From Spirogloea muscicola (lineage: Eukaryota; Streptophyta; Zygnematophyceae; Spirogloeales; Spirogloeaceae): DNA of 64,000 bases. Both the position numbers and the translations under genes were made by a program. The notes beneath the pieces were generated by a model. It had not been told where the DNA came from. It searched no databases and saw only the letters and a list, made by a program, of their open reading frames with translations. This document shows, piece by piece, positions 7,760 to 60,895 of this stretch. Numbering within the stretch: position 1 is the first letter of the stretch; the number at the start of each line of letters is the position of its first letter. The DNA lies in assembly GCA_009602725.1 (NCBI GenBank), contig WELB01000033.1, forward strand, positions 668,495-732,494, in the 5' to 3' direction.

Positions 7760-8035
7760 GAAAGTGCTCGCCCATAGAAACAAAGGGGCTAGCAAAGCCA
7801 GCCCGAAAAGAATGGACAATATCCAAAGGCCACACAGGCCACAAAACGATGCCGAAAACGAAATAACTACATGAGGACACTGAATGATGCAGATAGTTGC
7901 TCAGTATCCACGGGTGAGCAACAGCAAAGCAGAATATCTCGAAGCAGGAAAAGCGGCACTCCGCCGTGACCCTGAGGCAGGAGCCATAGCGCGGCCGGCG
8001 CGCGTGTGGACCGCGTGAGCCAGAGAAGAAGTCGC
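7760..8035 (-). mobile_element. LINE 3' end, type 2 (C-terminus SALLLLTRGY)
   Basis: Minus strand. The tail starts at about 7765 with the reverse complement of the GGGCGAGCACTTTC terminus, the hairpin lies at about 7785-7803, and the stop codon at 7901 closes a frame ending SALLLLTRGY preceded by LAHAVHTRAGRAMA. This is the end of the RLE-LINE protein. The copy is 5'-truncated near 8035, where a type 6 copy of opposite strand begins. Confidence 0.8.
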
Positions 8036-8059
8036 TCTCCCAATCTCTACTTCAAAACA

Positions 8060-8396
8060 TTGCCAATCTAGGCTACACTCGACGTGCAGATGTCTTTCCG
8101 GCTGAGATGGGCTTGCCAGCTGCATATCTGTCCCTCTTGCGACGACGAGTTTCGGCCTGTTTGCGGCGTGCTCAGGCTAGAGCCTTGCACCAGAAAGCTG
8201 GGCGAGCTCTAGTTGGTGGCAGAAGGGCTCCGTTTCTGGCATCTAGTATTCATGCATCAAGTAGTGACCTTTATGTTTTGACCCGTGGTTATTGAGCGGG
8301 TCAATCTGCTGTAGATTATGTAGATCTTTAGATGTGCTTGCCTTTGTACGTGGCCGTTTGGCCTACATTTGTTTCTAATACACGGAATGTTTCCCC
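8060..8396 (+). mobile_element. LINE 3' end, type 6 (C-terminus SDLYVLTRGY)
   Basis: Plus strand. An open frame to the stop at 8293-8295 contains RALHQKAGRAL and ends SDLYVLTRGY. The 3' UTR carries GCGGGTCAATCTGCTGTAG, then the GGCC..GGCC tail hairpin and TTTGTTTCTAATACACGGA. Near-identical copies lie at 11222-11475 (+) and 33345-33000 (-), so the family was active relatively recently. Confidence 0.85.
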
Positions 8397-8475
8397 AGTG
8401 GGGGCAAGGGCTGTGAAAAGCCAGCCCGAAAAGAATTGACAGAAAGTCGAAGGGGCCAAATGACGGAGGGGCCTA
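8397..8475 (-). mobile_element. LINE tail stub, type 4
   Basis: Minus-strand tail only: reverse complement of a terminus with CCCCCACTGGGG and the hairpin GGGCTGGCTTTTCACAGCCC, then GACTTTCTGTCAATTC. No coding sequence remains. It joins the end of the preceding type 6 copy. Confidence 0.7.
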
Positions 8476-8539
8476 AACCGTGACATTAGGGGCGCGTAGG
8501 TGGGGGCGGAGAGGAGCGCTACCTGAGTGCGTGGTAAGA

Positions 8540-9825
8540 GAGAATGCGCGGCCACATAAACTGGTGGCTGGGAGAGGCCAGCCCAAAGAAATGCACAAGG
8601 TCTGAAGGAGCCGGAGTGCTAAGGACTAAGACATCAGCAACGGGACGCTCAGTAACCTCTAGTCAAACGATGCAAGCTCGCAGGCGGATAATGTCGCCCT
8701 GACGGAAGCCGGAGGCCGCCGCCAAAGCGCGGCCGGCGCGCAAGTGAACCGCGAAGGCAAGGGACCGCTGCAACGAGATGGCCAAACACATTCGGAAGAC
8801 CTGAGCGAGGGACCCGGCAACAATGAAGCCGGGCTGCTCGCCCTGCTGCCCGAGGCGGCGGGCCGCTGGTCGCCGCGCAAGGCGGTGAAGTAGGTCAAGC
8901 CATTTTGTGCAGAAGGCGCCGTGTACGTCGATGACGAGTGGGACGAACTCGTCTTCCACCAGGTGATCCGAGTATTCACGTTCCTCTGCGCCCGCTGCTT
9001 GGCGGACAGCGTAGCCCGCCTCCCCGACGAGCGTTTGGCGCTCCTGGAATCAAAACAGTCAGTCGTGACAACGTCGGCAATGAGCCGAGGCCCCCCGCCG
9101 AACGCGCTGGCGACGAGATCGGCGCGCCGGGAGTGGCGGCGGCCATCCGCCCCAACGGTCGGAGGCATGATGCTGGTATTCTCGAGCGCCACCGTGTGAC
9201 CGGCCTCGACAAAGATGCCAAACAGCGTTCCGCAGCAGGTCGTGGGTTCCTGTCCGCTCCCCGTCCCGTGCGCACCTGAGCATATGAGCTGCCAACGATT
9301 CCGCGTCTGAGCTGCGCTCGATGCACTCACACTGCTGTACTCCACTGAGGCAGGGTGGGTGGAGGCCGAGGAGGCGGTGCATCGCTGTACGGAAGGCGTC
9401 ATCAGGTATCCGGAGCGCGTCGTGGATCGGCAGGGCAGACAATCAAGCTGCCGCCCCTGGGGAGGATGTCGAGAGCAACCGACGTCCGAAGGCGAAAGCC
9501 CCAACGCCGCGGTGAAGGAGGCCGCATCTACCTCGGCATGATGCGAGCATGGGCCCGGAGGTCGGCCATGCGCGCGAGGTGCGCAAACGGGACGGCTCGT
9601 GGCACCAGGGCGGGGTGATCCGCAAGCAGCGCATCTCGGGCAGAGCGGAGAGCCGCCTGGAAAGAGAAGAGCTCGCCCAGGAAAGGCAACGTGCCAGTCT
9701 CCACGTCCGCTGCCGCCTGCTCCAGGAGGCGACCCCATGCCGGAATAACGCTGGGCCACCGAAGCCGCCCAGGCGAGGAAGCCGGCAGCATTGAAGCCTG
9801 GCAGACCCGGCCGCCGCTCGATGAA
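8540..9825 (-). mobile_element. LINE fragment, type 3, with RLE domain region
   Basis: Minus strand, 1.3 kb. Reading 5' to 3' in several shifted frames: a helical region (VETGTLPF, ARDALLADHPALV), then ALRIPDDAFRTAMHRLLG, the knuckle CECIERSSDAESLAAHMLRC (C-x1-C-x12-H-x3-C), RTGTHDLLRN, a nuclease core, then FVPLVIDVHGAF and the end LRAGRALAAASGF. The expected SDLHLLTRGY end is lost. The tail has the CAGCCACC hairpin side and the GCGGCC terminus at about 8540-8590. At least three frame changes, so it is dead. Confidence 0.85.
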
Positions 9826-10795
9826 GAAAGGGCGCGCGCATTGAGTTTAGGGGCTGAAAAAGCCAGCCCCAAAAAAATGGAGCGAAGTACAAGAAGGGGG
9901 CCAGGGGAAGCGCTAAGAAAAACAAGCACACAAACAAACAAAGCAGCTACGTATCACTTGGTGACCCCTGCTAAGCAGCCTCAGGTCAGAGACGCTAGGC
10001 TCCTGGAAGTGGGTCCCCTGGCCAGAGCCAGAGGCAGCAGCGAGGGCCCTGCCGGCGCGCAGGTGCAGCGCGCGGGCCATGGACCTCTGCAGCAAAACGG
10101 CCAAGCACGTCCGGTACACCTGCGCGAACGACCCGGCTGAAGGAAAGTCCACCGGCTCCCCATGGAAGCGGCGGACGATGGCGTGGCGGGTGAGCTAGTT
10201 GAGCAGCTCGAGCCACCGAGCGCCCAACGCCCCATGCGTGTCAATAGCCAGCGGGAAGAACTCGTCTTCCCGCGGATGATCAGCATACTTGAGCTCTTTT
10301 GCCCGAGCGGCGCAGGCGACCGCATACCCAGCCTTGATGGCACATCGGGGGGGGGGGTGTGAGCGGTCGTATGCGTCAGTGGTCACCACGTGCAGGGTAA
10401 GACGTGGCCCGCCGGCTTGTGGGGTGGGCACAAGGTCTACGCGACGTGCGTGGAGATCATCGGCCCGTTGCTGGAGCGCCATGACGGCGGAGGTCTCCGC
10501 TGCCACCGAGAAGTCAGCCTCCACCAGGAAAGCCATGCATCGCATCCCGGAGGCGGTCGTGGGCCGCTGTCCGCTCTCCGCTGTGGGAACAGCGCAGAAC
10601 ATGAGCAGCCAGCTCGCCAGGCTCGGCCCCTCGCTCGCCATAATCACATTGACGAACACCCTGGAGACTTGGCGGCGGCTCGATGGCCTGCCGGGCAAGC
10701 CGCTGGAGGAGATCCAATCAGCCAGGAGTTTGGAAGCCGCATGCGGAACACATGGGCAAGCGACCCAGCGGCGTTGAAGCCGGGCAGCTCACCTT
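9826..10795 (-). mobile_element. LINE fragment, type 1, with RLE domain
   Basis: Minus strand. The terminus at about 9826 abuts the 5' end of the neighbouring type 3 copy. Coding parts: 10698-10195 (LHARRVDLVPTPQAGGPRL, then HVVTTDAYD, AKELKYADHPREDEFFPLAI) and 10152-9913 (SMARALHLRAGRALAAASG, SDLRLLSRG). The normal ..RGY-stop is changed to RGHQ so the frame runs into the 3' UTR. The Cys/His knuckle is in another frame at 10717-10514. Contains at least two frame changes. Confidence 0.85.
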
Positions 10796-11019
10796 TCTGG
10801 CCGTTATGGCCTGCAAACATTGTCCATTTTTTTCTGCTGTCTTTGCAAGCCCATCATTTTCAATGGGCGAACCATTTCTCTTTCTGACCCTGCCACCGAT
10901 TGGACTCGCACAGCCACTGCCGTTAATCATTTTATACATGAAGCGGTGCGATACAGAAGAAGCTGTCACCGTGCGGCCGAGTGATGGCCAGCCGTGCAAG
11001 TCGCTGCAGGAAGTCCAGC
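10796..11019 (+). mobile_element. Decayed LINE tail (type 2-like) and unassigned sequence
   Basis: Plus-strand remnant at about 10800-10875: AAACATTGTCCATTTTTTTC, a degenerate hairpin, then CAATGGGCGAACC. From about 10880 to 11019 I see nothing I can assign apart from a stretch resembling a type 4/5 3' region. Confidence 0.5.
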
Positions 11020-11221
11020 AAAAAGGGACTCGCCCATCGAGGATAGGGGCTGGGAAGTGTAAGGAATGCTGTGGATCGCCAAGCCCGGGCTGCCGGCGGC
11101 GCAAGGAAAAGCGGGGAGGCATTGGGATGGAGCCGCAACGGTAAAACTGAGCAACGGTTACTGCAGGGGCAAGGGTCCAGGGGTCCGAGGTTGGGTGAAG
11201 AACTCACCCCCTCTCCCATCG

Positions 11222-11475
11222 CTCTTGCGACGTCGAGTTTCGGCCTGTTTGCAGCGTGCTCAGGCTAGTGCCTTGCACCAGAAAGCTGGGCGAGCTCTAG
11301 TAGGTGGCAGAAGGGCTCCGTTCCTGGCATCTAGTATTCATGCATCGAGTAGTGACCTTTATGTTTTGACCCGTGGTTATTGAGCGGGTCAATCTGCTGT
11401 AGGTTATGTAGATTTTTAGATGTGCTTGCCTTTGTACCTGGCCATTTGGCCTACATTTCTTTCTAATACACGATC
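11222..11475 (+). mobile_element. LINE 3' end, type 6, nested in solo LTR 1
   Basis: Plus-strand frame to the stop at 11381-11383 containing SALHQKAGRAL and ending SDLYVLTRGY, followed by the type 6 tail (GGCCATTTGGCC, CTAATACACGA at about 11450-11475). Nearly the same sequence as 8130-8395. 5'-truncated; the start at about 11196-11222 is not sharp. Confidence 0.85.
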
Positions 11476-11745
11476 TCTTCCCATCTCGGGTGCCCTCTAT
11501 ATGGCTGCTGCTTCCGGGTCTCGGCAAAGTGCCGCTTCTCCTGCTCCGAGTTACTCTGATCTGCTGTTGCTCACACGTGGATACTGAGCAGCCATCTGCA
11601 TCTCCCTCTGCACCATCTTGCACTTTGTAGTGTAGTCCTTTTTCAGCACCTCTTTCTTTGGCTTTGAACATTGTCCATTCTTTTTGGGTTGGCTTTTTGG
11701 GTTTGCCAGCCCCTCTTCTCAATGGGCGAGCACCTTCTTCTATAT
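11476..11745 (+). mobile_element. LINE 3' end, type 2, nested in solo LTR 1
   Basis: Plus strand, directly after a type 6 terminus. The last coding residues read MAAASGSRQSA..SYSDLLLLTRGY and stop at about 11587. The tail has the hairpin GGTTGGC..GCCAGCCCC and ends ATGGGCGAGCACCTTCTTC at about 11741. LTR sequence resumes at about 11745 (TAGCCCGACGG). Confidence 0.85.
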
Positions 11746-12590: not shown

Positions 12591-12860
12591 AGAAAGTGGC
12601 TCTCCCAACGGGGGCAAGGGCTATGATAAGCCAGCCCGAAAGGAGTTGACGATGTTCGAAAGGGCCAAACTACGATGGGGCCATAAGCGCTAGCTCAGAG
12701 CTGGGGCAGGATGAAACCACTCAATAACTACGAGTGAGGAGCCTCAAATCCGACAGACTAGCTGCCGGCAAACAATCCCGCTGACAAAAGCCAGCCACCA
12801 ACTAACGGCCCGTGCACTTCCACCGCGAAAAGGTTTGTATGCTTGAAAAAAAGAGAGAAG
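12591..12860 (-). mobile_element. LINE 3' end, type 4 (C-terminus SDLRLLTRSY)
   Basis: Minus strand. Terminus and hairpin at about 12595-12640 (GGGGGCAAGGGCTATG, AAGCCAGCCCG). Upstream on the sense strand lies a frame ending SDLRLLTRSY-stop, its stop at about 12718. RGY is RSY here. 5'-truncated. Confidence 0.65.
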
Positions 12861-13200: not shown

Positions 13201-13214
13201 CTATAGCCAGGAAG

Positions 13215-13480: not shown

Positions 13481-13489
13481 CTGTGTGTT

Positions 13490-13620: not shown

Positions 13621-13673
13621 TGCGGATGCTCAACAGAAGATAGTGAGCATTCCAGTGGTCACATGAGTTGCAG

Positions 13674-14772
13674 TGTAACGAATTCTGTGGATCGCCAAGC
13701 CCAGGATGCCGGCAGAGCAAGGGAAAGCGGGGAGGCATTGGAATGGGGCGTCAACGGTAAAGATGAGCCAACGGATACTGCAGGGGCAAGGGTCCAAGGG
13801 TCCGAGGCTGGGAGAACATAGCCCGACGGCCTGCGAGCCCGGCCATACGGCCCGGGTGGGATATTTGGCACCCAGTCTCTCGTTGATGACCCGTCCACGA
13901 CCTGTCGACGGCTATCAACGGGCTACCACCGACAATCTACCCCATCCATCGGCCACCACCGCCATACTGACGGTCCCCCGTCACTAGCAGCTGACGGTCA
14001 CTACCCCCAGGCTATCGTGAGCCGTCTATCGTTCCCGTCAACACTAACGGCTAACGCCGTCAAGGCAGTCTACAGCGCTGCCGCCTCCCGTCGCCGTGCC
14101 AGCGCCAGCACCATGCTGTCTCGCGCGTCACGACCCGGTAGGAGACGAGTTTGTTCCACTGGCAGTCGACGTGCACGGAGCCTTTGGCACAAAATGGCTT
14201 GACTTGCTTCACCGCCTTGCGCGGCGTGCAGCGGCCCGCCGCCTCGGGCAGCAGGGCGAGCAGCCCGGCTTCATTGTTTCCGGGTCCCTCGCTCAGGTCT
14301 TCCGAATGTGTTTGGCCATCTCGTTGCAGCGGTCCCTTGCATTCGCGGTTCACTTGCGTGCAGGCCGAGCTTTGGCGGCGGCCTCCAGCTTCCGTCAGGG
14401 CGACGTCTTTCCGCCGGCTAGCTACTCAGACTTGCATCTCCTAACTAGAGGTTACTGAGCGTCCCCTGGCTGATGTCTTAGTCCTAGTCCTTCGCACTCC
14501 GGCTCCTTCAGACCTTGTCCATACCTTTGGGCTGGCCTTTGCCAGCCACCAGTCAATCTGGCCGCGCTTTCTTCCGGGTTGCGCCGCTCTCACCTCTAGT
14601 TTAAATCCACGCTGCCCAGCCTGGTGAAAATGTTCGTCTCCAGGCATCTGTCAAGCCTTTCCTGCGGCACTGACAGTTAACTTATCTATCAGCCAGATGA
14701 GGTGTCTAGTCTCCAGGCATCTGTCTATATATCATTGCTGCAATGACATTCCAGCCATGTAAAATCGTCACA
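13674..14772 (+). mobile_element. Solo LTR 2, same family as LTR 1, interrupted by a LINE
   Basis: Starts TGTAACG and ends CGTCACA, flanked by an exact 5-bp target duplication TGCAG (13669-13673 and 14773-14777). It aligns with LTR 1 along its whole length apart from a LINE insertion at about 14135-14578; the LTR itself is about 660 bp. A solo-LTR fossil with no internal genes nearby. Superfamily unassigned; moderate divergence between the two copies suggests it is not very recent. Confidence 0.8.
14135..14578 (+). mobile_element. LINE 3' end, type 3, nested in solo LTR 2
   Basis: Plus-strand frame running to the stop at 14456-14458: FVPLAVDVHGAFGTKWLDLL, then SLAFAVHLRAGRALAAASS and the end SDLHLLTRGY. 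Unlike most copies this piece reads without interruption from its 5' truncation to the stop. The tail ends with GCCAGCCACC, CAATCTGGCCGCGCTTTCTTC-like sequence at about 14574. Comparison with LTR 1 gives the empty site and a 3-5 bp target duplication near CCGG. Confidence 0.9.
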
Positions 14773-14785
14773 TGCAGTTTGCTTT

Positions 14786-16194: not shown

Positions 16195-16725
16195 GTTTGG
16201 CCACTTCGGACCTAGTCGAGTTGGGCTGGCCGATCTTTGGCAGAGTATGGCTTTGTTCCCCTCGCCGTTGACATCCGTGGGGCTTTAGGGCTCCGGTGCT
16301 TGACCTCTTGCATGGGCTTGTATTGGCTTGCAAGTTGCGCAACATCAAGGTAAAGCCACTGACTCCCGTGGTGGACGTGACGGCCACCACATCGACACGC
16401 TGTGCAAGGCCAGCCCAACAGTAGAGTACTTCTCAGAGTAAGGACAGCTCCAAAAAGTGCGGACAGGGTGCAAAAGTGCCGCACCGAATTGTGGTCTCTT
16501 GCTTTCCTGATATACAAATGCTTTCCAGAACTGTGGGGCTGGCGGCTTGAGTTCGATGCCTTTGGAAGAACGTTTGTTAATGAGCCTGCTAGCTAATCTG
16601 ATTTGCATCTACTGACTAGAGGTTACTGAGAGTCCCCTTGCTGCCGTCTTAGCACTCAGCACCTTGCTTTCTGCACCATCCAGCTCCTTCAGACCTTGTC
16701 CATGAAAATGTTCCTGGGCTGTGTG
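16195..16725 (+). mobile_element. Interrupted LINE 3' end, type 3
   Basis: Plus strand. 16240-16330 encodes a form of FVPLAVDIRGALG; 16590-16629 reads SDLHLLTRGY-stop; the tail with CTCCTTCAGACCTTGTCCATG follows and is cut in the hairpin (TTCCTGGGCTG at about 16715). The middle (16340-16590) does not match other copies and may be an inserted sequence. Confidence 0.65.
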
Positions 16726-17584: not shown

Positions 17585-18300
17585 CTGCACCTGCGTGCCG
17601 GCAGAAATTGCTCGCCCATTGAGAATAGGGGCTGGAAATGCCAGCCCAAGAATCAACAAAGGACCAGAAGGGGGCCAGGGGAAGCGCTAAGAAGAACAAG
17701 CACACAAAGAAACAAAGCAGCTACGGATCACTCAGTAACCCCTGCTAAGCAGCCTGAGGTCAGGAACGCTAGGCTCCTGGAAGTGGGTCCCCTGGCCAGA
17801 GCCAGAGGTTTAGCAGAGAAAGAGCTCGCCCATTGAGGATAGGGGCTGGAAAAGCCAGCCCAAAAAAGAATGAACAAAGTACGAGAAGGGGGCCAGGGGA
17901 AGCGCTAAGAAAAAACAAGCACACAAAGAAGCACAGCAGCTACAAATCACTCAGTAACCCCTGCAAAGCAACCGCAGGTCGGAGATGCTAGGCTCCTGGA
18001 AGTGGGTCCCCTGGCCAGAGCAAGAGGCAGTAGCGAGGGCTCTGCCGGCACGAAGGTGCAGCGCCCGGGCCAAAGACCTCTGCAGCGAGACGGCCAGGCG
18101 CATACGGCACACTTGCGCCAGCGACCCGGCTGCAGGAAAGTCTACCGGCTCCCCACGGAAGCGACGGGCGATGGGACCTGCGGGCCGGCAGAAGAAAGTG
18201 CTCGCCCATTGAGAATAGGGGCTGGAAAAGCCAGCCCAAAAAAGAATGAACAGAGTACGAGAAGGGGGCCAGGGCAAGCGCTAAGAAAAACAAGCACACA
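17585..18300 (-). mobile_element. Head-to-tail array of three type 1 LINE 3' ends
   Basis: Minus-strand termini (GCTCGCCCATTGAG) start at about 17608, 17823 and 18199, each followed by the hairpin GGGGCTGGAAAAGCCAGCCC, the CTTAGCGCTTCCCC side, and in the first two a 3' coding end (SDLRLLCRGY for the second, stop at 17951). Each copy is cut short where the next begins. In two cases the joint falls right after GCCGGCAG, which in this family encodes the LRAGR block, so the new copy probably inserted in the older copy's coding part. Confidence 0.85.
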
Positions 18301-18530
18301 GAGAACACAGCAGCCCTCGCTGATGCCTCTGGCTCTGGCCAGGGGACCCACTTCCAGGAGCCCAGCATCTCTGATCTGCGGCTGCTTAGCAGGGGTTACT
18401 GAGTGTCTCGTAGCAGCTTTGTTTCTGTTACTTAGCGCTTCCCCTGGCCCCCTTCTCGTACTCTGTTCATTTTTTTTCGGGCTGGTTGTTCCAGCCCCTA
18501 TTTTCAATGGGCGAGCACTTTCTTCTTCTA
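18301..18530 (+). mobile_element. LINE 3' end, type 1, plus strand
   Basis: Plus strand: ASGSGQGTHFQEPSISDLRL-type frame ending LLSRGY at 18401, then the 3' UTR and hairpin (GGGCTGGTTGTTCCAGCCCC) and terminus ATGGGCGAGCACTTTCTTC at about 18510-18525. It faces the minus-strand copy at 18199-18300, making an inverted pair. Confidence 0.85.
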
Positions 18531-21784: not shown

Positions 21785-22020
21785 TAGGAGAAGAAAGAAA
21801 GAAGGTGCTCGCCCATTGAGAAAAGGGGCTGGCAAAGCCAACCCAAAAAGAATGGACAATGTTCAAAGCCAAAGAAAGAGGTGCTGAAAAAGGACTACAC
21901 TACAAAGTGCAAGATGGTGCAGAGGGAGATGCAGATGGCTGCTCAGTATCCACGTGTGAGCAACAGCAGATCAGAGTAACTCGGAGCAGGAGAAGCGGCA
22001 CTTAAAGAAAGAGGATAGGG
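21785..22020 (-). mobile_element. LINE 3' end, type 2 (C-terminus SDLLLLTRGY)
   Basis: Minus strand, mirror image of the preceding copy: terminus at about 21800, hairpin GGGGCTGGCAAAGCCAACCC, the GACTACACTACAAAG block, and a stop at about 21943 closing SDLLLLTRGY. 5'-truncated near 22005. Confidence 0.8.
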
Positions 22021-22560
22021 GCTGGAAAAAAGAAGAAAGTGCTCGCCCATTGAGAATAGGGGCTGGAACAACCAGCCCGAAAAAGAATGAACAGAGTACG
22101 AGAAGGGGGCCAGAGGAAGCGGTAAGTTACAGAAACAAAGCTGCTACGAGACACTCAGTAACCCCTGCTAAGCAGCCGCAGATCAGAGATGCTGGGCTGG
22201 AAAAAGCCAGCCCAAAAAAGAACGAACAGGAGGGGGCCCCTAGCAGGGCCTCTTCTCTCGTAGCAGCTTTGTTTCTGTTACTTAGCGCTTCCCCTGGCCC
22301 CCTTCTCGTACTCTATTCATTCTTTTTCGGGCTGGTTGTTCCAGCCCCTATTCTCAATGGGCGAGCACTTTCTTCTTCTCTATGGGCGAGCTCTTCTCTA
22401 GCAGAAGAAAGGGCTCGCCCATTGAGGATAGGGGCTGGACAAGCCAGCCCAAAAAAGAATGAACAAAGAACGAGAAGGGGGCCAGAGGAAGCCAGAGGAA
22501 GCGCTAAGAAACCAAAGCACACAAAGAAAGAAAGCAGCTACAAATTACTCAGTAACCAGC
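22021..22560. mobile_element. Nested type 1 LINE tails, both orientations
   Basis: 22005-22036 is a hairpin arm (GATAGGGGCTGGAAAA) opened by the next tail (-), which starts AGAAGAAAGTGCTCGCCC at 22037 and runs to about 22195 with a SDLRLLSRGY-type end. 22196-22256 is a further fragment. 22257-22380 (+) and 22403-22556 (-) are tail copies facing each other. At least four insertions in 540 bp. Confidence 0.8.
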
Positions 22561-29487: not shown

Positions 29488-30322
29488 CCTTTAGAAGAAA
29501 GTGCTCGCCCATTGAGAATAGAGAAAGTGCTCGCCCATTGAGAATGGGGGCTGGAAAAGCCAGCCCAAAAAAGAATAAACAGAGTACGAGAAGGGGGCCA
29601 GGGGAAGCGCTAAGAAAAACAAGCACACAGAGAGAAGGCGCACAAAGAAACAAAGCAGCTACAAATCACTCAGAAACCTCTGCTAAGCAGCCGCAGGTCG
29701 GAGATGCTAGGCTCGTGGAAGTGGGTCCCCTGGCCAGAGCCAGAGGCAGCAGCGAGGGCTCTGCCGGCACGAAGGTGCAACGCCCGGGCCATAGACCTCT
29801 GCGGCGAGACGGCCAGGCGCATTCGAATACACTTGCGCCAGCGACCCGGCTGCTGAAAGTCTACCGGCTCCCCATGGAAGCGACGGGCGATGGTGTGGCG
29901 GGCGAGCCGGGTGAGCAGCTCGAGCCACCGAGCGCCCAGCGCCCCATGGGTGTCTATTGCCAACGGGTAGAACTCGTCTTCCCGCGGATGGTCTGCGTAC
30001 TTGAGCTCTTTAGCCCGAACGGCGCAGGCGACCGCAAACCCAGCCTTTGTGGCACATTGGGCTGGGTGTGAGCGGTCGTATGCATCGGTGGTCACCACGT
30101 CCAGGAGAAGACGTGGCCCGCCGGCCTGTGGGGTGGCCACCAGGTCTACACGCCGGGCGTGGAGACCGTCGGCCCTTTCTTCTTTCCTGGATCGGCATGA
30201 TGCCGGAGTGCTCCGCTGCCACGGAGAAGCCAGCCTCCAACAGGATGCCATGCATCACATCGCGGAGGCGGTCGTGGGCCGCTATCCGCTCGCCGCCGTG
30301 GGCGCAGCGCAGAACATGAGCG
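29488..30322 (-). mobile_element. LINE 3' part, type 1, with RLE domain
   Basis: Minus strand. Two termini (about 29500 and 29528) show one tail inserted in another. The frame 30251-29670 encodes LHARRVDLVATPQAGGPRLL, DVVTTDAYD, AKELKYADHPREDEFYPLAI, DTHGALGARWLELLTRLAR, SMARALHLRAGRALAAASG and ends SDLRLLSRGF. It is one of the longest uninterrupted RLE-domain readings here (about 190 codons). The knuckle lies upstream of the 5' truncation at 30322, where another tail begins. Confidence 0.85.
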
Positions 30323-32994: not shown

Positions 32995-33345
32995 GAAAAA
33001 AGTGCTCGCCCATAGAAAGAAAGGAAAAGATCGTGTATTAGAAAGAACTGTAGGCCAAATGGCCAGGTACAAAGGCAAGCACATCTAAAAATCTACATAA
33101 CCTACAGCAGATTGACCCGCTCAATAACCACGGGTCAAAACATAAAGGTCACTACTCGATGCATGAATACTAGATGCCAGGAACGGAGCCCTTCTGCCAC
33201 CTACTAGAGCTCGCCCAGCTTTCTGGTGCAAGGCACTAGCCTGAGCACGCTGCAAACAGGCCGAAACTCGACGTCGCAAGAGCGACAGATATGCAGCTGG
33301 CAAGCCCATCTCAGCCGGAAACACATCTGCGCGTCGAGTGTAGCC
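32995..33345 (-). mobile_element. LINE 3' end, type 6, with a type 1/2 stub at its end
   Basis: The minus-strand frame 33366-33121 contains YTRRADVFPAEMGLPAAYL, SALHQKAGRAL and ends SDLYVLTRGY; the tail runs to about 33030 (CGTGTATTAGAAAG). At 33000-33020 a GTGCTCGCCCATAGAAAG stub adjoins. Nearly identical to 8060-8395. Confidence 0.85.
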
Positions 33346-33735
33346 TAGAAAGAAAGGGGCTAGCAAAGCAAAGTCAGCCCAGAAAAGAATGGACGCAATT
33401 TAAAGGCACAAAACGGTGCCGAAAAGAAAGTGCTCGCCTTAAAAAAAGAAAAAGTTAGTGTCTGAAACAAACCAAGGCCAAATGGCCAAGTACGAAGGCA
33501 AGCACATCTAAAGAACTACATAACCTACAGCAGATTGTCCCGCTCAGTAACCACGGGTCAAAACATAAAGGTCGCTTATCGATGCCTGAATACTAGAAAA
33601 AGAGGGGCTAGCAAAGCCAGCCCAGGAAAGAATGGACAAATTTCAAAGGCCACAGAACGGTGCCGAGAGAGGAAAAAGTGCTGAAAGGGCCAAAAGGATC
33701 AAACAAGCAACTGGTCTCGGTGATCCTGCGAATGG
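33346..33735 (-). mobile_element. LINE tails, types 2 and 6, nested
   Basis: 33350-33440 and 33600-33690 are two minus-strand type 2 tail parts (GGGGCTAGCAAAG..AGCCC, AGAATGGAC); 33450-33600 is a type 6 3' end (GGCCAAATGGCC, AACCACGGGTCAAAACATAAAG) inserted between. Confidence 0.7.
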
Positions 33736-33925
33736 ATGCTCGATTTTGGTGGCAGAAGCGGTCCGTTTCTGGCATCTAGTATTCATGCATCGATAAGTGA
33801 CCTTTAAGTTTTGACCCGAGGTTATTGAGCGGGTCAATATGCTCCAGGTTATGTAGATCTTTGGATTTGCTTGCCTTTGTACTTGGCCATTTGGCCTACA
33901 TTTGTTTCTTATACACGAAACTTTC
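33736..33925 (+). mobile_element. LINE 3' end, type 6
   Basis: TTTTGGTGGCAGAAGCGG through TTTTGACCCGAGGTTATTGAG (frame broken in the YVLTRGY region), then GGGTCAATATGCTCCAGG and the tail TTGGCCATTTGGCC, TTATACACGA. Confidence 0.75.
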
Positions 33926-34245: not shown

Positions 34246-34758
34246 AAAAATCAAAGAGCTACAGGAGAATCACTCAGTAACCTCTGCTAAGCAGCCGCAG
34301 GTCGGAGATGCTAGGCTCGTTGAAGTGGGTCCCCTGGCCAGAGCCAGAGGCAGCAGCGAGGGCTCTGCCCTGTTCTGTTCTGTTCTGTTCATTCTTTTTC
34401 GGGCTGGTTTTTCCAGCCCATATTCTCAATGGGCGAGCACTTGCTTGCCGGCACGAAGGTGCAACGCCCGGGCCATAGACCTCTGCAGCGAGACGGCCAG
34501 GCGCATTCGAATACACTTGCGCCAGCGACCCGACTGCAGGAAAGTCGACCGGCTCCCCATGGAAGCGACGGGCGATGGTGTGGCGGGCGAGCCGGGTGAG
34601 CAGCTCGAGCCACCGAGCGCCCAGCGCCCCATGGGTATCAATGGCCAACGGGAAGAACTCGTCTTCCCGCGGATGGTCTGCGTACTTCAGCTCTTTGGCC
34701 CGAGCAGCGCAGGCGACCGCATACCCAGCCTTGGTGGCACATTGAGCTGGGTGTCGCC
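34246..34758 (-). mobile_element. LINE 3' part, type 1, with a tail-only insertion inside
   Basis: The minus-strand reading runs from 34758 to the stop at 34274: YAVACAARAKELKYADHPRE, DEFFPLAIDTHGALGARWLE, LLTRLARHTIARRF, SLAQVY, then is interrupted by a 77-bp insertion (34370-34446), and ends ALAAASGSGQGTH, SDLRLLSRGY. Joined to a plus-strand type 3 copy at 34758. Confidence 0.85.
34370..34446 (+). mobile_element. 77-bp LINE insertion consisting only of the 3' tail
   Basis: Starts CTGTTCTGTTCTGTTCTG, then CATTCTTTTTC, the hairpin GGGCTGGTTTTTCCAGCCC, and the end ATGGGCGAGCACTTGCTT. Flanked by GCC on each side (34367-34369, 34447-34449); sister copies at 29760 and 18040 have a single GCC (CTCTGCCGGCACGAAGG), so the duplication is 3 bp. 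Confidence 0.85.
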
Positions 34759-35164
34759 TGGCGCGGCGTGCAGCGGCCCGCCGCCTCGGGCAGCAGGGCG
34801 AGCAGCCCGGCTTCAACGTAGCCGGGTCCCTCGCTCAGGTTTTCCGCATGCGCTTGGCCGTCTTGATGCAGCGGTCCCTCGCCTTCGCGGTTCACTTGCG
34901 CGCAGGCCGAGCTTTGGCGGCGGCCTCCGGCTTCCGTCAGGGCGACGTCTTTCCGCCAGCTAGCTTCTCGGACCTGCATCTCCTGTCTAGAGGTTACTGA
35001 GCGTTCCCTGGCTGATGTCTTAGTCCTAGTCGTTCGCACTCAGGCTCCCTCAGACTTTGTCCATTCTTTTGGGCTGGCCTTTCCCAGCCACCAGTCAATC
35101 TGGCCGCGCTTCCCCTGGCCCCCTTCGCGTACTTCGTTCATTCTTTCGTTTAAAGAAAGGAAAG
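34759..35164 (+). mobile_element. LINE 3' end, type 3, followed by a type 1 tail part
   Basis: The plus-strand frame reads RRLGQQGEQPGF, SLAQVFRMRLAVLMQRSLAF, AVHLRAGRALAAASGFRQGD and ends SDLHLLSRGY at about 34999, then the type 3 tail to GGCCGCGCTT at about 35112. 35113-35155 continues as the CCCCTGGCCCCCTTCGCG part of a type 1 3' UTR. Confidence 0.85.
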
Positions 35165-35745: not shown

Positions 35746-36583
35746 TCGGAGATGCTAGGCTCGAGGTGGTCCATGGCCCACGCTCTGCATCTGAGTGCTG
35801 ACTGTGCTCTCGCTGCGGTCTCCGGCTTTCATCGCGGACAAGTTCACACGACCTCCTGCGAGACGCCATGCAGAGTGTGTTCCTAGAGGCCGGCTACAAG
35901 GCGGCAGTGGAGAACTCGACGATCCTGCCCATCCTGCGGGGCGCTGACGGACAGCTTCACACCCACCGCGCGGACCTCATTGCCATCCCGCCCGGAGGAG
36001 GTCCGCGTATCATCGCTGATGTGGTCACTGCAGACTGCGTTGATTCGGCCAACCCCGCGAAGTCGGCGACGCTTGTCTGGCACGCGGTCGCTTTGGCGGC
36101 TCGGAGTAAGGAGCGCAAGTACTCTGACCATCCTCAAGGCGATGCCTTCGCGGCACTGGCCATTGACGTACACGGGGCCTTCGGCAGTGGCTGGTTGGAC
36201 CTCCTCCAGGCGGCTTGCCCGGGAGGCCATCGAGCGGCGGCAGGGTTCGCCAAGCTTCAATGCTGCCGGCTCCCTCGCGCAGGTCTTTCGGATGAGGCTG
36301 GCGGTCTCGCTACAGCGCTCTTTGGCTCATGCGGTCCATGGCCGTTTTATGGCTGCTGCTTCCGGGTCTCAGCAGAGTGCCGATTTGCCTGCTTCGAGTT
36401 ACTCTGATCTGCTGTTGCTCGCACGTGGATACTGAGCATCCATCTGCATCTCCCTCTGCACCGTCTCGCGCTTTGCAGTGTAGTCCTTTTTCGGCACTTC
36501 ATTCTTTGGCTTTGGACATGGTCCATTCTTTTTGGGTTGGCTTTGCCAGCCCCTCTTCTCTATGGGCGAGCTCTTCTTCTTTC
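35746..36583 (+). mobile_element. LINE 3' part, type 2, with near-intact RLE domain
   Basis: From 35868 the plus-strand frame reads VFLEAGYKAAVENSTILPIL, HRADLIAIPPGGGPRIIADV (core R-x-D-x14-D), RSKERKYSDHP, LAIDVHGAFGSGWLDLL; after one frame change near 36190-36220 it continues SLAQVFRMRLAVSLQRSLAH and ends SDLLLLARGY at 36435. The tail ends GGGCGAGCTCTTCTTC at 36583. The knuckle is lost. This is the best single view of the nuclease core in the window. Confidence 0.85.
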
Positions 36584-36885: not shown

Positions 36886-37130
36886 CGTCGGCGGGCAGAA
36901 GAGAGAAGGCGCGCGGGGTGCATGACATGAAATGGAGGCCAATTCAAGCCGATACATTAGTCAGGCAGAGTCTAGGGCTACATAATCTGGAGACCGAAAC
37001 TAAGGTGCTTAAGGTGACATCAGTACCCACGGGTGAGCACAAACAAATCCGACAAGCTAACTTGGGGAGCTGGAGCGCCGCCACGAAAGCCAGAGGCCTG
37101 ACTTAGAGCGCGCCCTGCACGTTGATGAAG
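36886..37130 (-). mobile_element. LINE 3' end, type 7 (C-terminus SDLFVLTRGY)
   Basis: Minus strand: reverse complement of 37020-37090 encodes GGAPAPQ-like residues and SDLFVLTRGY with its stop near 37022. The 3' UTR (36890-37020) shares a block with 12861-12945. No GGGCTGG hairpin seen in this type. Confidence 0.65.
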
Positions 37131-47100: not shown

Positions 47101-47310
47101 GCGGGCCCGGCGATGAAGAAAGGGCTCGCCCATTGAGGATAGGGGCTGGACAAGCCAGCCCAAAAAAGAATGAACAAAGAACGAGAAGGGGGCCAGAGGA
47201 AGCCAGAGGAAGCGCTAAGAAACCAAAGCACACAAAGAAAGAAAGCAGCTACAAATTACTCAGTAACCCCTGCTAAGCAGCCGCAAATCAGAGAGGCTAG
47301 GGTCCTGGAT
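47101..47310 (-). mobile_element. LINE 3' end, type 1
   Basis: The minus-strand terminus at about 47118 (AAGGGCTCGCCCATTGAGG), hairpin GGGGCTGGACAAGCCAGCCC and 3' UTR are nearly identical to 22405-22556. The coding end near 47256 reads LASLICGCLAGVTE, a shifted frame of SDLRLLSRG. 5'-truncated at about 47310. Confidence 0.8.
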
Positions 47311-47495: not shown

Positions 47496-47940
47496 GAAAG
47501 AAGAAAGCGCGGCCAGATTGACTGGTGGCTGGGAAAGAAGAAAGTGCTCGCCCATTGAAGATAGAAGGTGCTCGCCCATTGAGAAGAGGGGCTGGCAAAG
47601 CCAACCCAAAAAGAATGGACAATATTCAAAGCCAAAGAAAGAGGTGCTGAAAGAGGACTACACTACAAAGTGCAAGACGGTGCAGAGGGAGATGCAGATG
47701 GCTGCTCAGTATCCACGTGTGAGCAACAGAGGATAGGGGCTGGAAAAGAAGAAAGTGCTCGCCCATTTGAGAATAGGGGCTGGAAAAGCCAGCCCAGAAA
47801 AGAATCAACAAAGGACGAGAAGGGGCCAGGGGAAGCGCTTAAAAAAACAAGCACACAAAGAAACTAAGCAGCTACGGATTACTCAGTAACCCCTGCTAAG
47901 CAGCCTCAGGTCGGAGACGCTGAGGCTCCTGGAAGTGGTT
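47496..47940 (-). mobile_element. Chain of nested LINE tails, types 3, 1 and 2
   Basis: A type 3 stub (GAAAGCGCGGCCAGATTGAC, GGCTGGGAAA) is broken in its hairpin at 47537 by a type 1 stub (GAAGAAAGTGCTCGCCC..GATAG), itself broken at 47563 by a type 2 copy (AAGGTGCTCGCCCATTGAG, GGGGCTGGCAAAGCC) that runs to about 47730 with LLLTRGY-stop. At 47730-47748 another arm GATAGGGGCTGGAAAA is again broken by a type 1 3' end (47749-47940). Confidence 0.8.
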
Positions 47941-48670
47941 CCCCTGGCTTTGCCCTGGCCCCCTTCTCGTACTCTGTTCATTCTTTTTCGGGCTGGTTGT
48001 TCCAGCCCCTATTCTCAATGGGCGAGCACTTTCTTCTTTGATGAGCCATATGTCACAAGCATACCACTAGCCACAGGATGTCTAAGGAATCAACTGCAAG
48101 CGAATGTTATCAGCACCCTTGCAAATCGGACTTACTTCTGGCCAGGGGACCCAATTCCAGGGGGCTTAGCAGGGGTTACTGAGTGGTTAGTAGCTGCTTT
48201 GTTTTTTCTTGTGTGCTTGTCATTTCTGCTGCTTCGCCTTAGGGCTTCACCTGGCTTCCCCCCCCCTCTTCTTGTACTCTGTTCAGTCTTTTTTGGGCTG
48301 GCTGTTCCAGCCCATATTCTCAATGGGCGAGCCCTTCTTCTCTTCTTAATTCCAGGAGCCTAGCGTCTCCGACCTGAGGCTGCTTAGCAGGGGTTACTGA
48401 GTGATCCGTAGCTGCTTTGTTTCTTTGTGTGCTTGTTTTTCTAAGCGCTTCCCCTGGCCCCCTTCTCGCCCTTTGTTGATTTTTTTTGGGCTGGCTTTTC
48501 CAGCCCCTATTCTCAATGGGCGAGCACTTCCCTCTGCCGGCCCGCGCAGGTGTAGCGCGCGGGACATCGACCGCTGCAGCGAGACGGCCTTTTTCTTGGG
48601 CTGGAAAAGCCAGCCCAAGAAAGAATGAACCGAGTACGAGAAGGGGGCCAGGTGAAAGGACTAGCAGCCC
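47941..48670. mobile_element. Type 1 LINE 3' ends, mainly plus strand
   Basis: Plus-strand tails end at about 48037, 48340 and 48530 (each ATGGGCGAGCACTT or GGGCGAGCCCTT); the third has the protein end VSDLRLLSRGY at about 48401. A minus-strand coding scrap (48536-48590) and hairpin (48595-48660) follow. 48040-48130 is unassigned. Confidence 0.75.
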
Positions 48671-49396: not shown

Positions 49397-49463
<67 letters not shown>

Positions 49464-57000: not shown

Positions 57001-57770
57001 ATTGTCGTTGAGCCACAGCATTGTGAGCATGGGCAGGCCGCCGAGGCACGCTGGGATGATGCTGGTCAGGCTGTTGTTGTGAAGGTGCAGCTCCTGCAGG
57101 AGGCTGCACTTGCAAATGCTTTGTGGGATTGGGCCAACCAAGGCATTGAGTGAGATGTCCAGCTGCCTCAGGGCCGGCACGCCAGTGGTGTCGAGGACGC
57201 GGCCGCCGAGCTTGTTCGAGCCAAGCAGGAGGAAGAGGAGCGCCGGCAGCGACCCATTGGTGAGGCATGGCGGGAGGCTGCCGGTGAGGCCGTTGAATCT
57301 CATATCCATGAGGACCATGGCCGAGGCATTGCAGAGTGTTCGAGGCACGGAGCCGGAGAGCGAGTTGTAGGCGAGGCCCAGGAAGTTGAGTTGCCGCAGG
57401 CGGCCCAGCGAAGCTGGGATGCCTCCGCTGAGGCTGTTGTTGTACAGGACGAGCTGCTCCAAAGCCGCCAGGTCGCCGAGCGACGCCGGGATGGGCCCCG
57501 ACAGGGCATTGTTGCCGAGGTCGAGCTGCTCAGTGCCGCCAGGCCGCCGAGCGCGCTGGAGAGACCGCCGGATAGCCCGGACGCCTGCAGGTCCAGCTGC
57601 GTGACGCGGACGCCGCGGCACCTGACGCCCGCCCAGGAGACGTTGCCATTGCCGCAGGGCCCGGCGCCGCCGGCCGCCCAGCCGGCGAGGACGCCATGGG
57701 GGTCGCGCAGGCCGTCCTTGAAGGCCAGCAGCGCCGCCTCATCCGCCGCGCCATTGCTGCCGGCCACGCC
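54050..57770 (-). pseudogene. LRR receptor-like kinase B, tandem copy, probably broken
   Basis: Minus-strand exons: about 57767-56134 (LRR), 55989-55322 (last LRRs, membrane span, start of kinase), 55172-54867, 54733-54579, 54462-54050. LRRNT cap (EAALLAFKDGLRDPHGVLAG, SWAGVRC), about 22 LRRs, a span (VVGIAIGAAAAMAVALVLVG), kinase with [31 protein letters not shown]. Two lesions in the LRR exon: the reading frame shifts by one base near 57528-57540 (LGGLAAL to EQLDLGNN), and a TAG stands at 56544-56542 where paralogue C has GAG. No ATG or signal peptide is found in frame; a TGA lies just upstream of the cap in that frame, so a separate first exon or further damage is possible. The kinase half is intact. 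The frame shift could be a sequencing error; the TAG is a substitution. If expressed, only a truncated receptor would result. Confidence 0.8.
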
Positions 57771-58189
57771 GCCGCAGCAGCGTCAGCTCGACGACCGGCG
57801 GAGGCGAGCGCAGAGGAGCGCCAGAGGGTGCAGGAGAGATGATAACCCATCTAACCAGCTGCCGCCACAGGCGCTGCAGCCTGCAGCGCGAGCTCCGTGG
57901 GCGGGAGCCTCAGCGGGGCCCAGCGCCGGGCCACGACTGCAGGGCACGGCAGCGGCGACGGCTGGCGAGAGCGGCGGCGGCGGCGGCGGCGGCGGGCTCA
58001 CCGCGGGCTCGACGGCTGCGCCTGAGCTGCCGCCCGCCGCCAGAATGGAAAAGCTNGGCGGCGGCGCGCGGGCCGGCGCGCGATGCGGCGGGGATCGTGG
58101 GCCCTCGGGCCTGCCGACCCCCTGGCCCGGCCGCGGGGGGGGAGACGCGACGGCCGTAGATTCGGATCCGGCCGCTCAGCTCCCTTCGA
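57771..58189. other. GC-rich region upstream of receptor kinase B, with a single N
   Basis: GCC/GGC-rich. A minus-strand frame has a hydrophobic LSSLLHPLALLCARLR that could be part of a signal peptide, but it is closed by TGA before the LRR cap. N at 58056. Confidence 0.45.
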
Positions 58190-58505
58190 ATCTGCCAGTG
58201 CACGGATTGGCCCCCCCTGGCCCAGATGGGTATGCCGGCAGCCTATCTGTCATTTCTGCGACGTCGAGTGTCAACCTGTCTGCAACGGCTCAGGCGTATG
58301 CTCTGCATCAGAAAGCTGGTCGAGCCTTAGCTGCTGGCACAAGAGCTAGTCAATTGTCGTCCGGTATTCGAGCGTCAGCTAGCGACCTCTATGTGCTGAC
58401 TCGTGGTTACTGAGCGGGTCAGCTTAGCAGCAGGTGACGTACATTTGTCCAATGTGCTTGCCTTTGTACTTGGCCACACATGGCCTCCCCATCTCTTAAT
58501 ATACA
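58190..58505 (+). mobile_element. LINE 3' end, type 6
   Basis: The plus-strand frame reads ALHQKAGRALAAGTRASQLS and ends SDLYVLTRGY at 58413. The tail has GTGCTTGCCTTTGTACTTGG, CCACACATGGCC, AATATACACGCA. 5'-truncated at about 58190. Confidence 0.85.
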
Positions 58506-60164
58506 CGCATTTCCTGGCCCGGCGCGCCCGCCGACATCCCGTACTGCATGCCACGTGGGACTTGGGAATGTGCCACGTGGATGCCGCTTCAGATCTGCCG
58601 TCCGTACGCCGCCGCCGGGACCGGCTGTTGTGAAGCGCCCAGCATCACGTGTGAGCCTCTCCCCCGAGCTTGCCCATCTTGCCATCACCGCCTCGGCTAT
58701 GGCCACAGCCCAGCGATGCACTGCGGCGGACCGGGAGCGGCGAGGTGGAGACGCTGCGCACCCAGACGGGCACTCGCTGAGGGGATCCTCCAGCGGGCGG
58801 GCTTCTCTGCTGCCCTGGCTCACAACCGCGCTCTCAAGGCCACTGCCGCGGCGTCCTCGTGCCAGCCTACGCTGAGCGACACCACACTGGTCGGCAGCCC
58901 GGGGGACGTGTTGGCAGCCACCGCCACGCTACGGCAACAGCTGGCCGCCTCTCGGCTTGTCCATCAGGGCTGGGATGTGCGCCGGATTCTCGCCCGCGCC
59001 TGCAGGCCAGCGTACCTCGGCAGCCAGGCACAGGTCACCGCGTCGGTGTCACAGCGCTGCCTCCTCGATGGGCGGCCTACGTTGCAGCAGGCGGTGACGG
59101 AAGTGGAGACCGGTTCGCTGCCCTTTCAAGTGGCGCTACGCTCGGCTCACCACGCGTTACTCGCCGAGCAAGCGGCCCTGGCAGGGAGCGCGGTCCCCTT
59201 GCGCACTTATCCCACTCCGCCGACTTGCGGACGCAGGCGCGGTACATGGCCGAGCTCGACAAGGCGGCCACGCTGGAGTTACTCCCCCAGACAGACGTGC
59301 GCGGGCATGCCCGGCTGCGGTCGGCATCCTCCCCTGGCCCGGCCGCCTGGCTCTCCGCTCTTCCGCTCTATGACGCACTGCGGATGTGGGACGAGATCTT
59401 CCTACGGCGGTCCATAGCCTGGGACTTCCACCGCCCTGTCTTCTGAGAGTGCTGCAGTGTGAGTGCGCGAAATGGTCAGCGGATCCAGCGGAGCTGGAGG
59501 CACACGTCCTTCGCTGCGCAACTGGAGGCGAGCGCACTGCTGCCATTGACCTCCTCAGGGATGCCATGCTCGGCATTCTCCTGGAGGCTGGGTACACTGT
59601 GGCGCTGGAGAATACGTCCATCATGCCTATCCTGCAAAGGCCGATGGACTCGACACTCGGCGGGTCGACCCGGTGGCCACCACGCCGGGTGGCGGCCCGC
59701 GCGTTATAGCCGACGTTGTCACCACTGATGGGGTGGACCGTTCCAGTCCGGGGCTTTCTGCCTCGAGGGCTGGCCATGCTGCGGCAAACGCGGCTGGCAG
59801 CAAGGCGACGAAGTACGTAGTTCGTACCCTTGGCCGTGGATGTGCACGGGGCTTTTGGGTCCCAGTGGCTCGACATGTTGCCCAATCTGCACGACGCATT
59901 GAGTCCCGCAGCGAGCTGAGCAGGCTGACTTCAACGCCGCTGGCTCGCTAGGTCAGGTCCATCGATTGCGCCTCTCTATGTCCCTCCACCGGTCCATGGC
60001 CCACGCCTTGCACCTGCGTGCCGGCCGTGCTCTAGCTGCAGCCTCTGGCTCACGTCATAGGGACTGCTTTCCGGCTGCTAGTCTTCGGACTTACGGCTCC
60101 TCACTCGTGGTTACTAAGTGATCCATCCTACTATCCTCAATGGGCGAGCCCTTTCTACCCAAGC
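58506..60164 (+). mobile_element. LINE fragment of 1.6 kb reaching upstream of the RLE domain
   Basis: Plus strand, several frames. CPSCHHRLGYGHSPAMHCGG (58650-58740) looks like an extra Cys/His segment; then AVTEVETGSLPFQVALRSAH, LALPLYDALR-like sequence, LLRVLQC and the knuckle CECAKWSADPAELEAHVLRC, RTAAIDLLRDAMLGILLEAG, then ATTPGGGPRVIADVVTTDGV, then SMAHALHLRAGRALAAASGS and a shifted SDLRLLTRGY. The tail is reduced to TCAATGGGCGAGCCCTTTC at about 60135-60160. At least four frame changes. It sits between the tandem receptor kinases. Confidence 0.8.
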
Positions 60165-60261
60165 CCTGAGACAGCGCTTTTGGCCCCTTAGGACTCTGTC
60201 AATTATTTCATTTTCGGGCTGGCTGTTCACAGCCTCGCCCCCTTTGGGAGTAGTCACTTCA
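60165..60261 (+). mobile_element. LINE tail, type 4
   Basis: GGCCCCTTAGGACTCTGTC, the hairpin GGGCTGGCTGTTCACAGCC, GCCCCCTTTGGGAGTAGTC. Confidence 0.7.
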
Positions 60262-60895
60262 TTTCTGGAAGACACGTCTGTCATGCCCATCCAGCTGTTG
60301 CCTGACGGTCGTTTCCATACACGGTGCGCTGACCTGATCGCCATCCTGCCCAGAGGGGGTCCACGCATCATCGTCACTACCGACTCCGTCGACTCCGCCA
60401 ATCCCATCAAACCGGCGACGGAAGCAGGGCACGCGGTTGGCAAGGCTGCTAAGCAGGGAAAGAGCGCACATCTGCAGATGAGCCTGCCTTTGATGAGGTT
60501 GTAGCGCTGACGATGGTCGTGCACGGAGCATTCCGCTTGCACAGCGGGCAGTCGATCGTCGGCAGGACAGCAAGGTGAGCTGCCCGGCTTTGTAGCCGCC
60601 AGGTCGCTTACCCAGGTGCTCGGCATGCGTTTGTCCATCTCCTTCCAAATTTCCCAGGCTCACGCAGTGCACTTGCTTGGCTGCTACTTCTGGGTCTCAT
60701 CTGGGTGCCTCTTTTCCAGCTACAAGTTACTCCGATGTGCGGCTGCTGACTCGGGGGTACTAAGCTCCCACTCGCTGTGGTCTCTTGCATAGCTGTGTGG
60801 TTTTTGGCGCCTTTTGGACCTTTGAACCGTGTTCGTGTTTTCTGGGCTGGCTTTTCAGCCCCACCCCTTTTGGAAGAGCCCACTTCCTATCACTG
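60262..60895 (+). mobile_element. LINE 3' part with RLE core (C-terminus SDVRLLTRGY)
   Basis: Plus strand: TSVMPIQLLPDGRFHTRCAD, LIAILPRGGPRIIVTT, ATEAGHAVGKAAKQ, then decayed sequence, and a stop at about 60763 after SDVRLLTRGY. The tail has GGCGCCTTTTGGACC, GGGCTGGCTTTTCAGCCCC, TTTTGGAAGAGCC. The first catalytic Asp (RCAD) is kept; the second lies in a changed VVTTD stretch. Confidence 0.75.

Follow-up and report, generated by a model that had tools for sequence, protein, structure and literature searches.

Why do LINE tails of different types, lying within one stretch of DNA, end in the same ten residues directly before the stop codon? The stretch, here called the window, is a 64-kb segment of the genome of Spirogloea muscicola, for which a first-pass annotation claimed at least 18 copies of SDLxxL(T/S)RGY before a stop. 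A scan of all six frames bears this out, with 19 exact SDLxxL[TS]RGY-stop matches, one of which (33796–33828) has a stop at the first x, and with the stop directly after the motif in 19 of 19 (Table 1). Allowing up to one, two or three substitutions, the copies number 29, 31 and 37; 30 dinucleotide shuffles of the window gave no exact match and means of 0.03 and 0.37 matches at up to two and up to three substitutions. Eight of the twelve stops cited as examples close exact copies, and the other four close copies with one substitution. The end had been described as near-invariant in all LINE types, which needs a small qualification: one tail type ends in SD[L/V]RLLTR[N/T/S]Y, with the glycine replaced, and the third residue of the motif varies among L, M, F and V. 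TGA, TAA and TAG are all in use after the motif.

Table 1. Copies of the C-terminal motif and associated features in the window.
Feature	Positions	Strand	Basis	Stop cited in the first-pass annotation
SDLYVLTRGY-stop, type B tail	8263..8295	+	motif scan	8295
SDLYVLTRGY-stop, type B tail	11351..11383	+	motif scan	11383
Type B hairpin across stop: TTGACCCGT / loop GGTTATTGA / GCGGGTCAA	11366..11392	+	folding, covariation	
SDLLLLTRGY-stop, type C tail	11555..11587	+	motif scan	
SDLHLLTRGY-stop, type D tail; homologous to LINE proteins from about 14135	14426..14458	+	motif scan, homology	14458
SDLHLLTRGY-stop, type D tail	16597..16629	+	motif scan	16629
SDLRLLSRGY-stop, type A tail	18370..18402	+	motif scan	18401 (here 18402)
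SDLLLLTRGY-stop, type C tail	21943..21975	-	motif scan	
SDLRLLSRGY-stop, type A tail	22155..22187	-	motif scan	
Type A nuclease C-terminal region, longest open window fragment; end SDLRLLSRGF-stop (one substitution)	29670..30182	-		29670
SDLYVLTRGY-stop, type B tail	33121..33153	-	motif scan	33121
SDLYVLTRGY-stop, type B tail	33544..33576	-	motif scan	
SDL*VLTRGY-stop, decayed type B tail	33796..33828	+	motif scan	
SDLRLLSRGY-stop, type A tail	34274..34306	-	motif scan	34274
SDLHLLSRGY-stop, type D tail	34968..35000	+	motif scan	
SDLFVLTRGY-stop, type E tail; homologous to LINE proteins over 37023-38727, with frame breaks	37020..37052	-		
SDLRLLSRGY-stop, type A tail	47260..47292	-	motif scan	
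SDLRLLSRGY-stop, type A tail	47883..47915	-	motif scan	
SDLRLLSRGY-stop, type A tail	48368..48400	+	motif scan	
SDLYVLTRGY-stop, tail of the second type B subfamily; hairpin CTGACTCGT/GCGGGTCAG	58381..58413	+	motif scan	58413
SDLRLLTRGY-stop	60085..60117	+	motif scan	
SALLLLTRGY-stop, one substitution, type C	7901..7933	-	motif scan	7901
SDLRLLCRGY-stop, one substitution, type A	17951..17983	-	motif scan	17951
SDLLLLARGY-stop, one substitution, type C; homology 35805-36432, one frame break	36403..36435	+		36435

No complete LINE ORF ends in any of the 37 window copies, exact or near. At most 194 open codons precede the motif in 36 of the 37, and in the 419-codon frame at 58413 the similarity to LINE proteins is confined to its last part. 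The window count therefore represents mostly inherited copies (tails) of a few families, and for the family comparison long open copies were taken from the rest of this one host genome. Truncated 5′ ends and common 3′ junction sequences were noticed in passing only. Pattern matches in IMG/VR and GTDB genomes were confirmed as relatives in 0 of 51 and 0 of 61 cases, respectively.

Six families (A, D, E, B, F and G) are 41–73% identical over the last ~520 residues. Their common C-terminal half contains the RT, a variant of the CCHC knuckle, a D-X14-D...K nuclease, a conserved basic segment following the nuclease core (R-x-R-x4-LQR-x2-A-x-A ... H-x2-AGRAL) that probably forms a helix, a linker of some 17 residues that changes fast, and the conserved final peptide, S-D-hydrophobic-x-L/V-L/V-T/S-R-G-Y, whose tyrosine is the last residue. 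Pfam places RVT_1 above cut-off in four of four proteins (39–44 bits), and a PDB profile search returned the R2 RT as best match (E 1e-5), and also the LINE-1 RT, with an alignment covering the RT only. In the alignment of the six families, nuclease residues D513, D528 (X14), K558 and Y562 (L029 numbering) are kept, with K or H before the tyrosine. Judged from these residues, the C-terminal nuclease appears to be of the PD-(D/E)XK type with K-X2-K-Y, as in RLE LINEs; a PDB profile search with the nuclease half found no match up to E 10, and Pfam gave no family for nuclease or tail. The tails come from a varied set of single-ORF LINEs whose C-terminus carries a restriction-like endonuclease (RLE). 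When type E copies were chosen by long frame, blind to the tail, 14 were sampled and 10 were readable, and SDLFVL[T/S]RGY-stop closes 9 of the 10, as it does both type E copies sampled earlier.

Mean pairwise identity among the six families is 72% in the last ten residues, compared with 43% in the linker and 47% for the aligned stretch as a whole. By this measure the last ten residues rank 27 of 528 alignment windows; when invariant columns are counted instead, 79 of the 528, the tail included, do as well as the tail or better. Such conservation could be only apparent, arising from recent copies or 3′-end gene conversion, or could reflect a feature of the DNA or RNA. Copies are indeed nearly identical within a type (type B tails), and in types B, C and H the motif codons also form a hairpin spanning the stop, with compensatory change both tested for and seen in type B alone. 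Types A, D, E, F and G, however, have no such stem or a weak one, and between types even the stop codon differs, as do the codons at invariant tail residues (Ser TCN/AGT, Leu CTN/TTG, Arg CGN/AGG). In the five tail columns that do not vary among the six families, codons are identical in 20 of 75 pairs, a lower share than the 701 of 1890 pairs at invariant columns outside the last 30, and tail pS is 0.43–0.98 over ten pairs of five representatives. The first-pass annotation had named equal conservation of synonymous sites as the mark of gene conversion or recent origin, and the tail does not bear it. Because synonymous divergence of the tail between families is as high as elsewhere, a DNA- or RNA-level feature is rejected as the whole cause, and we find this reading hardly credible.

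Relative to synonymous change, nonsynonymous change is low in the tail. Over 12 disjoint pairs from 25 sequences (no sequence occurs in two pairs, yet the pairs are not fully independent on the tree, and one may still contain a non-homologous part despite filtering for such frames), pN/pS is 0.19 in the tail (last ten codons), 0.27 in the basic segment, 0.49 in the linker and 0.39 in the rest. One-sided Fisher tests on these pairs give p 0.003 for the tail against the linker and 0.007 against the rest; after splitting, the excess is weaker, with p 0.06–0.10 for the nine within-family pairs and about 0.024 for the three between-family pairs. Tail and basic segment show no clear difference in constraint (p 0.22) and are equal in between-family pairs. 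Among overlapping pairs of low divergence, pN/pS is 0.05 (65 pairs) and 0.02 (107 pairs) in the tail, against 1.04 and 0.47 in the linker; in the high-divergence bin of 179 pairs, which takes in frames without homology over their full length, it is 0.32 in the tail, 0.68 in the linker, 0.44 in the basic segment and 0.68 in the rest. Since codons and stop codons differ and tail pN/pS is low, the constraint is on the protein: purifying selection keeps the tail as protein, not as DNA letters.

Support for the stop-spanning stems comes mainly from the type B covariation. Under a first measure, which took the longest stem with any loop and gave G-U pairs full weight, UTR-shuffle P is 0.27 for B1, 0.07 for B2, 0.05 for C and 0.13 for H. 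A second measure, chosen after the first (loop of at most 12, G-U discounted), gives these four P 0.002–0.007 by UTR shuffle and 0.02–0.08 by synonymous recoding, and gives A, D, E, F and G P 0.045–0.23, with type F, repeated from two loci, at 0.23 and 0.12. Folding z-scores for type B run from +0.3 to −5.6. That the conserved residues are exactly those adjoining the stop, and that three types put a hairpin across it, would suit a nascent peptide that slows termination in the ribosome and thereby brings the new protein together with the 3′ UTR of its own RNA (cis-preference). This is very unlikely, given that all three stop codons are used and that no hairpin is common to all types. A still more elaborate version, in which the ORF end would be a dual-use signal, the termination-slowing peptide holding the new protein to its RNA and, in some families, its own codons forming a hairpin at the stop onto which the protein then loads, is likewise a long shot.

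The function that the first-pass annotation assigned to the extreme C-terminus stands in so far as selection acts on the tail as protein; its suggestion that this tail binds a hairpin at the 3′ end of the element's RNA does not find support. The peptide does sit at the ORF end, adjoining the 3′ UTR, and contains one arginine. The 3′ UTRs, as had been stated, differ between families having the motif in common: in the 3′ tails compared, a GGCTGG..CCAGCC hairpin was matched in two of two D copies and one of two A copies, is visible by eye in C and F, and was not found in B, E and G, all of which bear the motif. In R2, moreover, the 3′ UTR is held by the N-terminal extension and RT domains, according to the available portions of PMC10499050 and PMC12503042. 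Because the 3′ UTRs differ and R2 uses these other domains, hairpin binding by the tail is improbable. Somewhat unlikely, too, is a short linear motif lying outside the fold and recognised by a host protein (a nuclear carrier, clamp or repair factor). A short conserved end behind a variable linker is also typical of linear motifs, and many families with the same motif in one host would fit a common partner; against this, nine of the ten positions are limited to one or few residues, whereas most linear motifs are shorter and less strict. We know of no linear motif that the tail peptide matches.

The extreme C-terminus is probably functional, and completion of the nuclease fold, the other role first suggested, is the most plausible reading of the tail. 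We give about an even chance to the proposal, drawn from sequence, that the tail is an intramolecular anchor closing the nuclease module; a docking peptide fits because the conserved peptide follows a variable linker. The peptide would fold back over the flexible linker and dock on the surface of nuclease, knuckle and basic segment, its hydrophobic positions packing against the fold and its Arg, Tyr and carboxylate making fixed polar contacts. The docked tail would latch the C-terminal module in its active form, the one able to nick target DNA and to hand the primer end to the RT. As counterpoints to the anchor, the PDB alignments found stop short of the nuclease, and in constraint the tail does not clearly stand out from the basic segment. 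R2 proteins have been produced with C-terminal tags, as the accessible parts of PMC12180492 and PMC5678591 describe, so that R2 itself does not seem to need a free C-terminal end. The evidence for the anchor comes from one host genome.

R2-kind RLE LINEs are under development as gene-insertion tools, and for the R2 core structures are available. In an RLE group other than R2, a nearly invariant C-terminal peptide points to a portion of the enzyme for which R2 models offer no explanation. LTRGY-stop is also a quick tag for the true 3′ ends of these elements and helps to sort their truncated copies.

Like R2 (R2Bm, R2Tg), the elements described here have a single ORF with putative N-terminal zinc fingers, RT, a CCHC knuckle and a probable C-terminal PD-(D/E)XK-type nuclease with the K-X2-K/H-Y motif. 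Unlike those of R2, their candidate N-terminal fingers look C2HC rather than C2H2, with C-X2-C-X11/12-H-X3-C patterns seen by eye in L080–L083; in four N-terminal stretches, Pfam zinc families appear only below cut-off, in two of the four, with C2H2 types in one. The conserved ten-residue end is not mentioned in the portions of the R2 literature examined, and a literature text search for 'ltrgy' gave, among the matches listed, no title on LINE proteins. The Dualen/RandI LINEs of Chlamydomonas are likewise green algal and have an RLE domain, and they carry both APE and RLE nucleases; here, in contrast, no APE or other endonuclease family was found in four of four N-terminal stretches of 604–803 aa (Pfam, to E 0.1). 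The RLE LINE knuckle is reported, in the part of PMC5678591 available, as CX2-3CX7-8HX4C, whereas the six families have the variant C-X1-C-X11/12-H-X3-C and another invariant Cys seven positions before it. The RT-knuckle-RLE order itself is the same here as in NeSL, CRE, Utopia and other RLE clades, as set out in the available portions of PMC4640811 and PMC5678591.

The ten residues that close the LINE proteins, SDLxxL[TS]RGY followed by a stop, are found in 19 exact copies in the window and in 37 when up to three substitutions are allowed. With all six frames considered, a stop codon directly follows each of the 19 exact motifs, and the exact motif is absent from 30 dinucleotide shuffles of the window. 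The coordinates of 12 copies listed in the first-pass annotation are correct, one with a shift of a single base; the motif is present in all 12, but four of them depart from the exact form by one substitution each. Translation of 14 copies, and a tblastn search in which four long copies were compared with the window, identify the motif as the C-terminal end of LINE proteins. All 37 window matches lack a complete ORF upstream: 36 are preceded by at most 194 open codons and one by 419, LINE-like at its end only.

The genome assembly (153 Mb, 471 contigs) was searched with the nuclease and tail region as queries; each search gave 6,649 to 21,193 first-look candidates, about 150 of which were scored. 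The representatives of families A (L029), D (L064), E (L062), B (L063), F (L102) and G (L104), compared over their C-terminal halves, are open for 557 to 699 codons within the stretches taken. The domain order is as follows: RT, CCHC knuckle, D-X14-D...K nuclease core, a G-x-x-W-like turn, a conserved basic segment, a variable linker of about 17 residues and the tail. RVT_1 was found in all four proteins tested, and in the alignment the nuclease core carries K-X2-K/H-Y. By eye, types A, D, E and B have C2HC-like fingers in their N-terminal stretches, along with low-complexity sequence that is mostly rich in proline; no APE family was found there.

In the last ~520 residues the six families are 41–73% identical, and the ten terminal columns are S, D, L/F/M, any, L/V, L/V, T/S, R, G, Y. 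The tail has a mean pairwise identity of 0.72, rank 27 of 528 ten-column windows, compared with 0.43 in the linker, 0.56 in the basic segment and 0.47 in the rest; these and the other conservation figures all come from one host genome. By its number of invariant columns the tail stands out less, at five of ten (79 of 528 windows, the tail included, equal or exceed this) or, with four families, six of ten (84 of 680). Thus, the tail is one of the better conserved parts but not the most conserved. Type H, SD[L/V]RLLTR[N/T/S]Y, has another residue in place of the glycine.

A type E query that ended before the basic segment was blind to the tail. The 14 copies fetched with it, chosen by an open frame of at least 656 codons, comprise nine that finish in SDLFVL[T/S]RGY-stop (an internal stop lies upstream in one of these), four that are masked and one in which the tail frame is lost. 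The earlier type E copies L061 and L062 have the same ending. Six other matches, chosen for alignment reaching the query end and including the frame-lost copy, are all decayed; the motif is recognisable in some frame in four and in none in two.

That the last ten residues are under selection as protein is well supported. In an NG86 analysis of 27 tails, with overlapping pairs, pN/pS in the two lower-divergence bins is 0.05 and 0.02 for the tail and 1.04 and 0.47 for the linker. Over 12 disjoint pairs (25 sequences), the values are 0.19 for the tail, 0.49 for the linker, 0.27 for the basic segment and 0.39 for the rest, with one-sided Fisher p for the tail of 0.003, 0.22 and 0.007 against the other three, respectively. 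The nine within-family pairs give 0.08, 0.33, 0.32 and 0.23 in the same order (p 0.06–0.10), and the three between-family pairs give 0.26, 0.57, 0.25 and 0.51, with p 0.02 for the tail against both linker and rest and 0.58 when it is compared with the basic segment. From this comparison within and between families, the tail and the basic segment may be one conserved unit split by the linker. Codons are identical in 20 of 75 pairs at the five invariant tail columns and in 701 of 1890 at the invariant columns that precede the last 30; of sets drawn at random from the latter columns, 88% equal or exceed the tail in codon identity. Among the stops seen, types A and B use TGA and type G uses TAG; C and D have mainly TGA, with TAA in some copies, and both TAA and TGA occur in E and F. 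The low tail pN/pS and the differing codons at invariant residues bear out the constraint on the extreme C-terminus that was first proposed from the window.

A hairpin across the stop was considered as the cause of the common amino acids. The stem of type B, 9 bp long with the stop codon inside its loop, forms between the L-T-R codons and the bases immediately after the stop (TTGACCCGT/GCGGGTCAA). Pairing holds in 98% of cells across the 17 distinct sequences among 21 chosen copies. Two-sided changes occur at two pairs, T-A to C-G between subfamilies and C-G to T-A in one copy (shuffle mean 0.6; 41 of 500 shuffles reach two); for the covariation score, the corresponding count is 2 of 500 shuffles. 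Folding z-scores of type B copies run from +0.3 to −5.6. A shorter stem is seen in types C and H and no outstanding one in A, D, E, F and G, by a measure picked after a looser one showed little. Since most types are without the stem, it cannot account for the common amino acids, and it may add constraint in type B.

Positions of features in the window
Feature	Position	Strand	Remark
Type B stop-spanning hairpin	11366-11392, 8278-8304, 58396-58422		L-T-R codons and first 3′ UTR bases
TCAATGGGCGAG-like stretch	29496-29545, 47535-47587		near 3′ end, common to type A and C tails
67-T run	49397-49463		pure; directly after LINE fragment 49171-49395
Open frame	56542-57621	−	leucine-rich-repeat-like by eye
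72-base repeat	57393-57553		~2.3 copies, in the open frame of the row above

Several truncated copies directly abut the TCAATGGGCGAG-like stretch, a placement that would fit insertion of new copies into older tails. Some LINE tails (L004, near 2386, and L073) are closely followed on their downstream side by CCCTAAA-like repeats of the telomere type.

It had also been suggested that the peptide binds the hairpin of the 3′ tail. A GGCTGG..CCAGCC hairpin was matched in both D copies and one of two A copies and was seen by eye in C and F, but it was not found within 420 bases in B, E and G, and the peptide is common to types with and without it. In published structures of R2, an RLE LINE, the 3′ UTR is seated on the N-terminal extension and the RT domains (PMC10499050, PMC12503042). 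Both observations argue against hairpin binding. C-terminal tags have been used when making R2 proteins, according to portions of PMC12180492 and PMC5678591. Because the conserved peptide follows a variable linker beside the nuclease core, we suggest that, most simply, it would dock back on the adjoining core across that linker. The main rival is that the peptide is a motif for a host partner.

The turn after the nuclease core, G-x-x-W or similar, may match the GXW reported beyond strand four in passages of PMC5678591. By their sequences, the Spirogloea families are classed as RLE LINEs with a variant knuckle. All six families share the spacing C-X1-C-X11/12-H-X3-C, with an extra invariant Cys seven residues upstream, whereas RLE LINEs as reported have another knuckle spacing.
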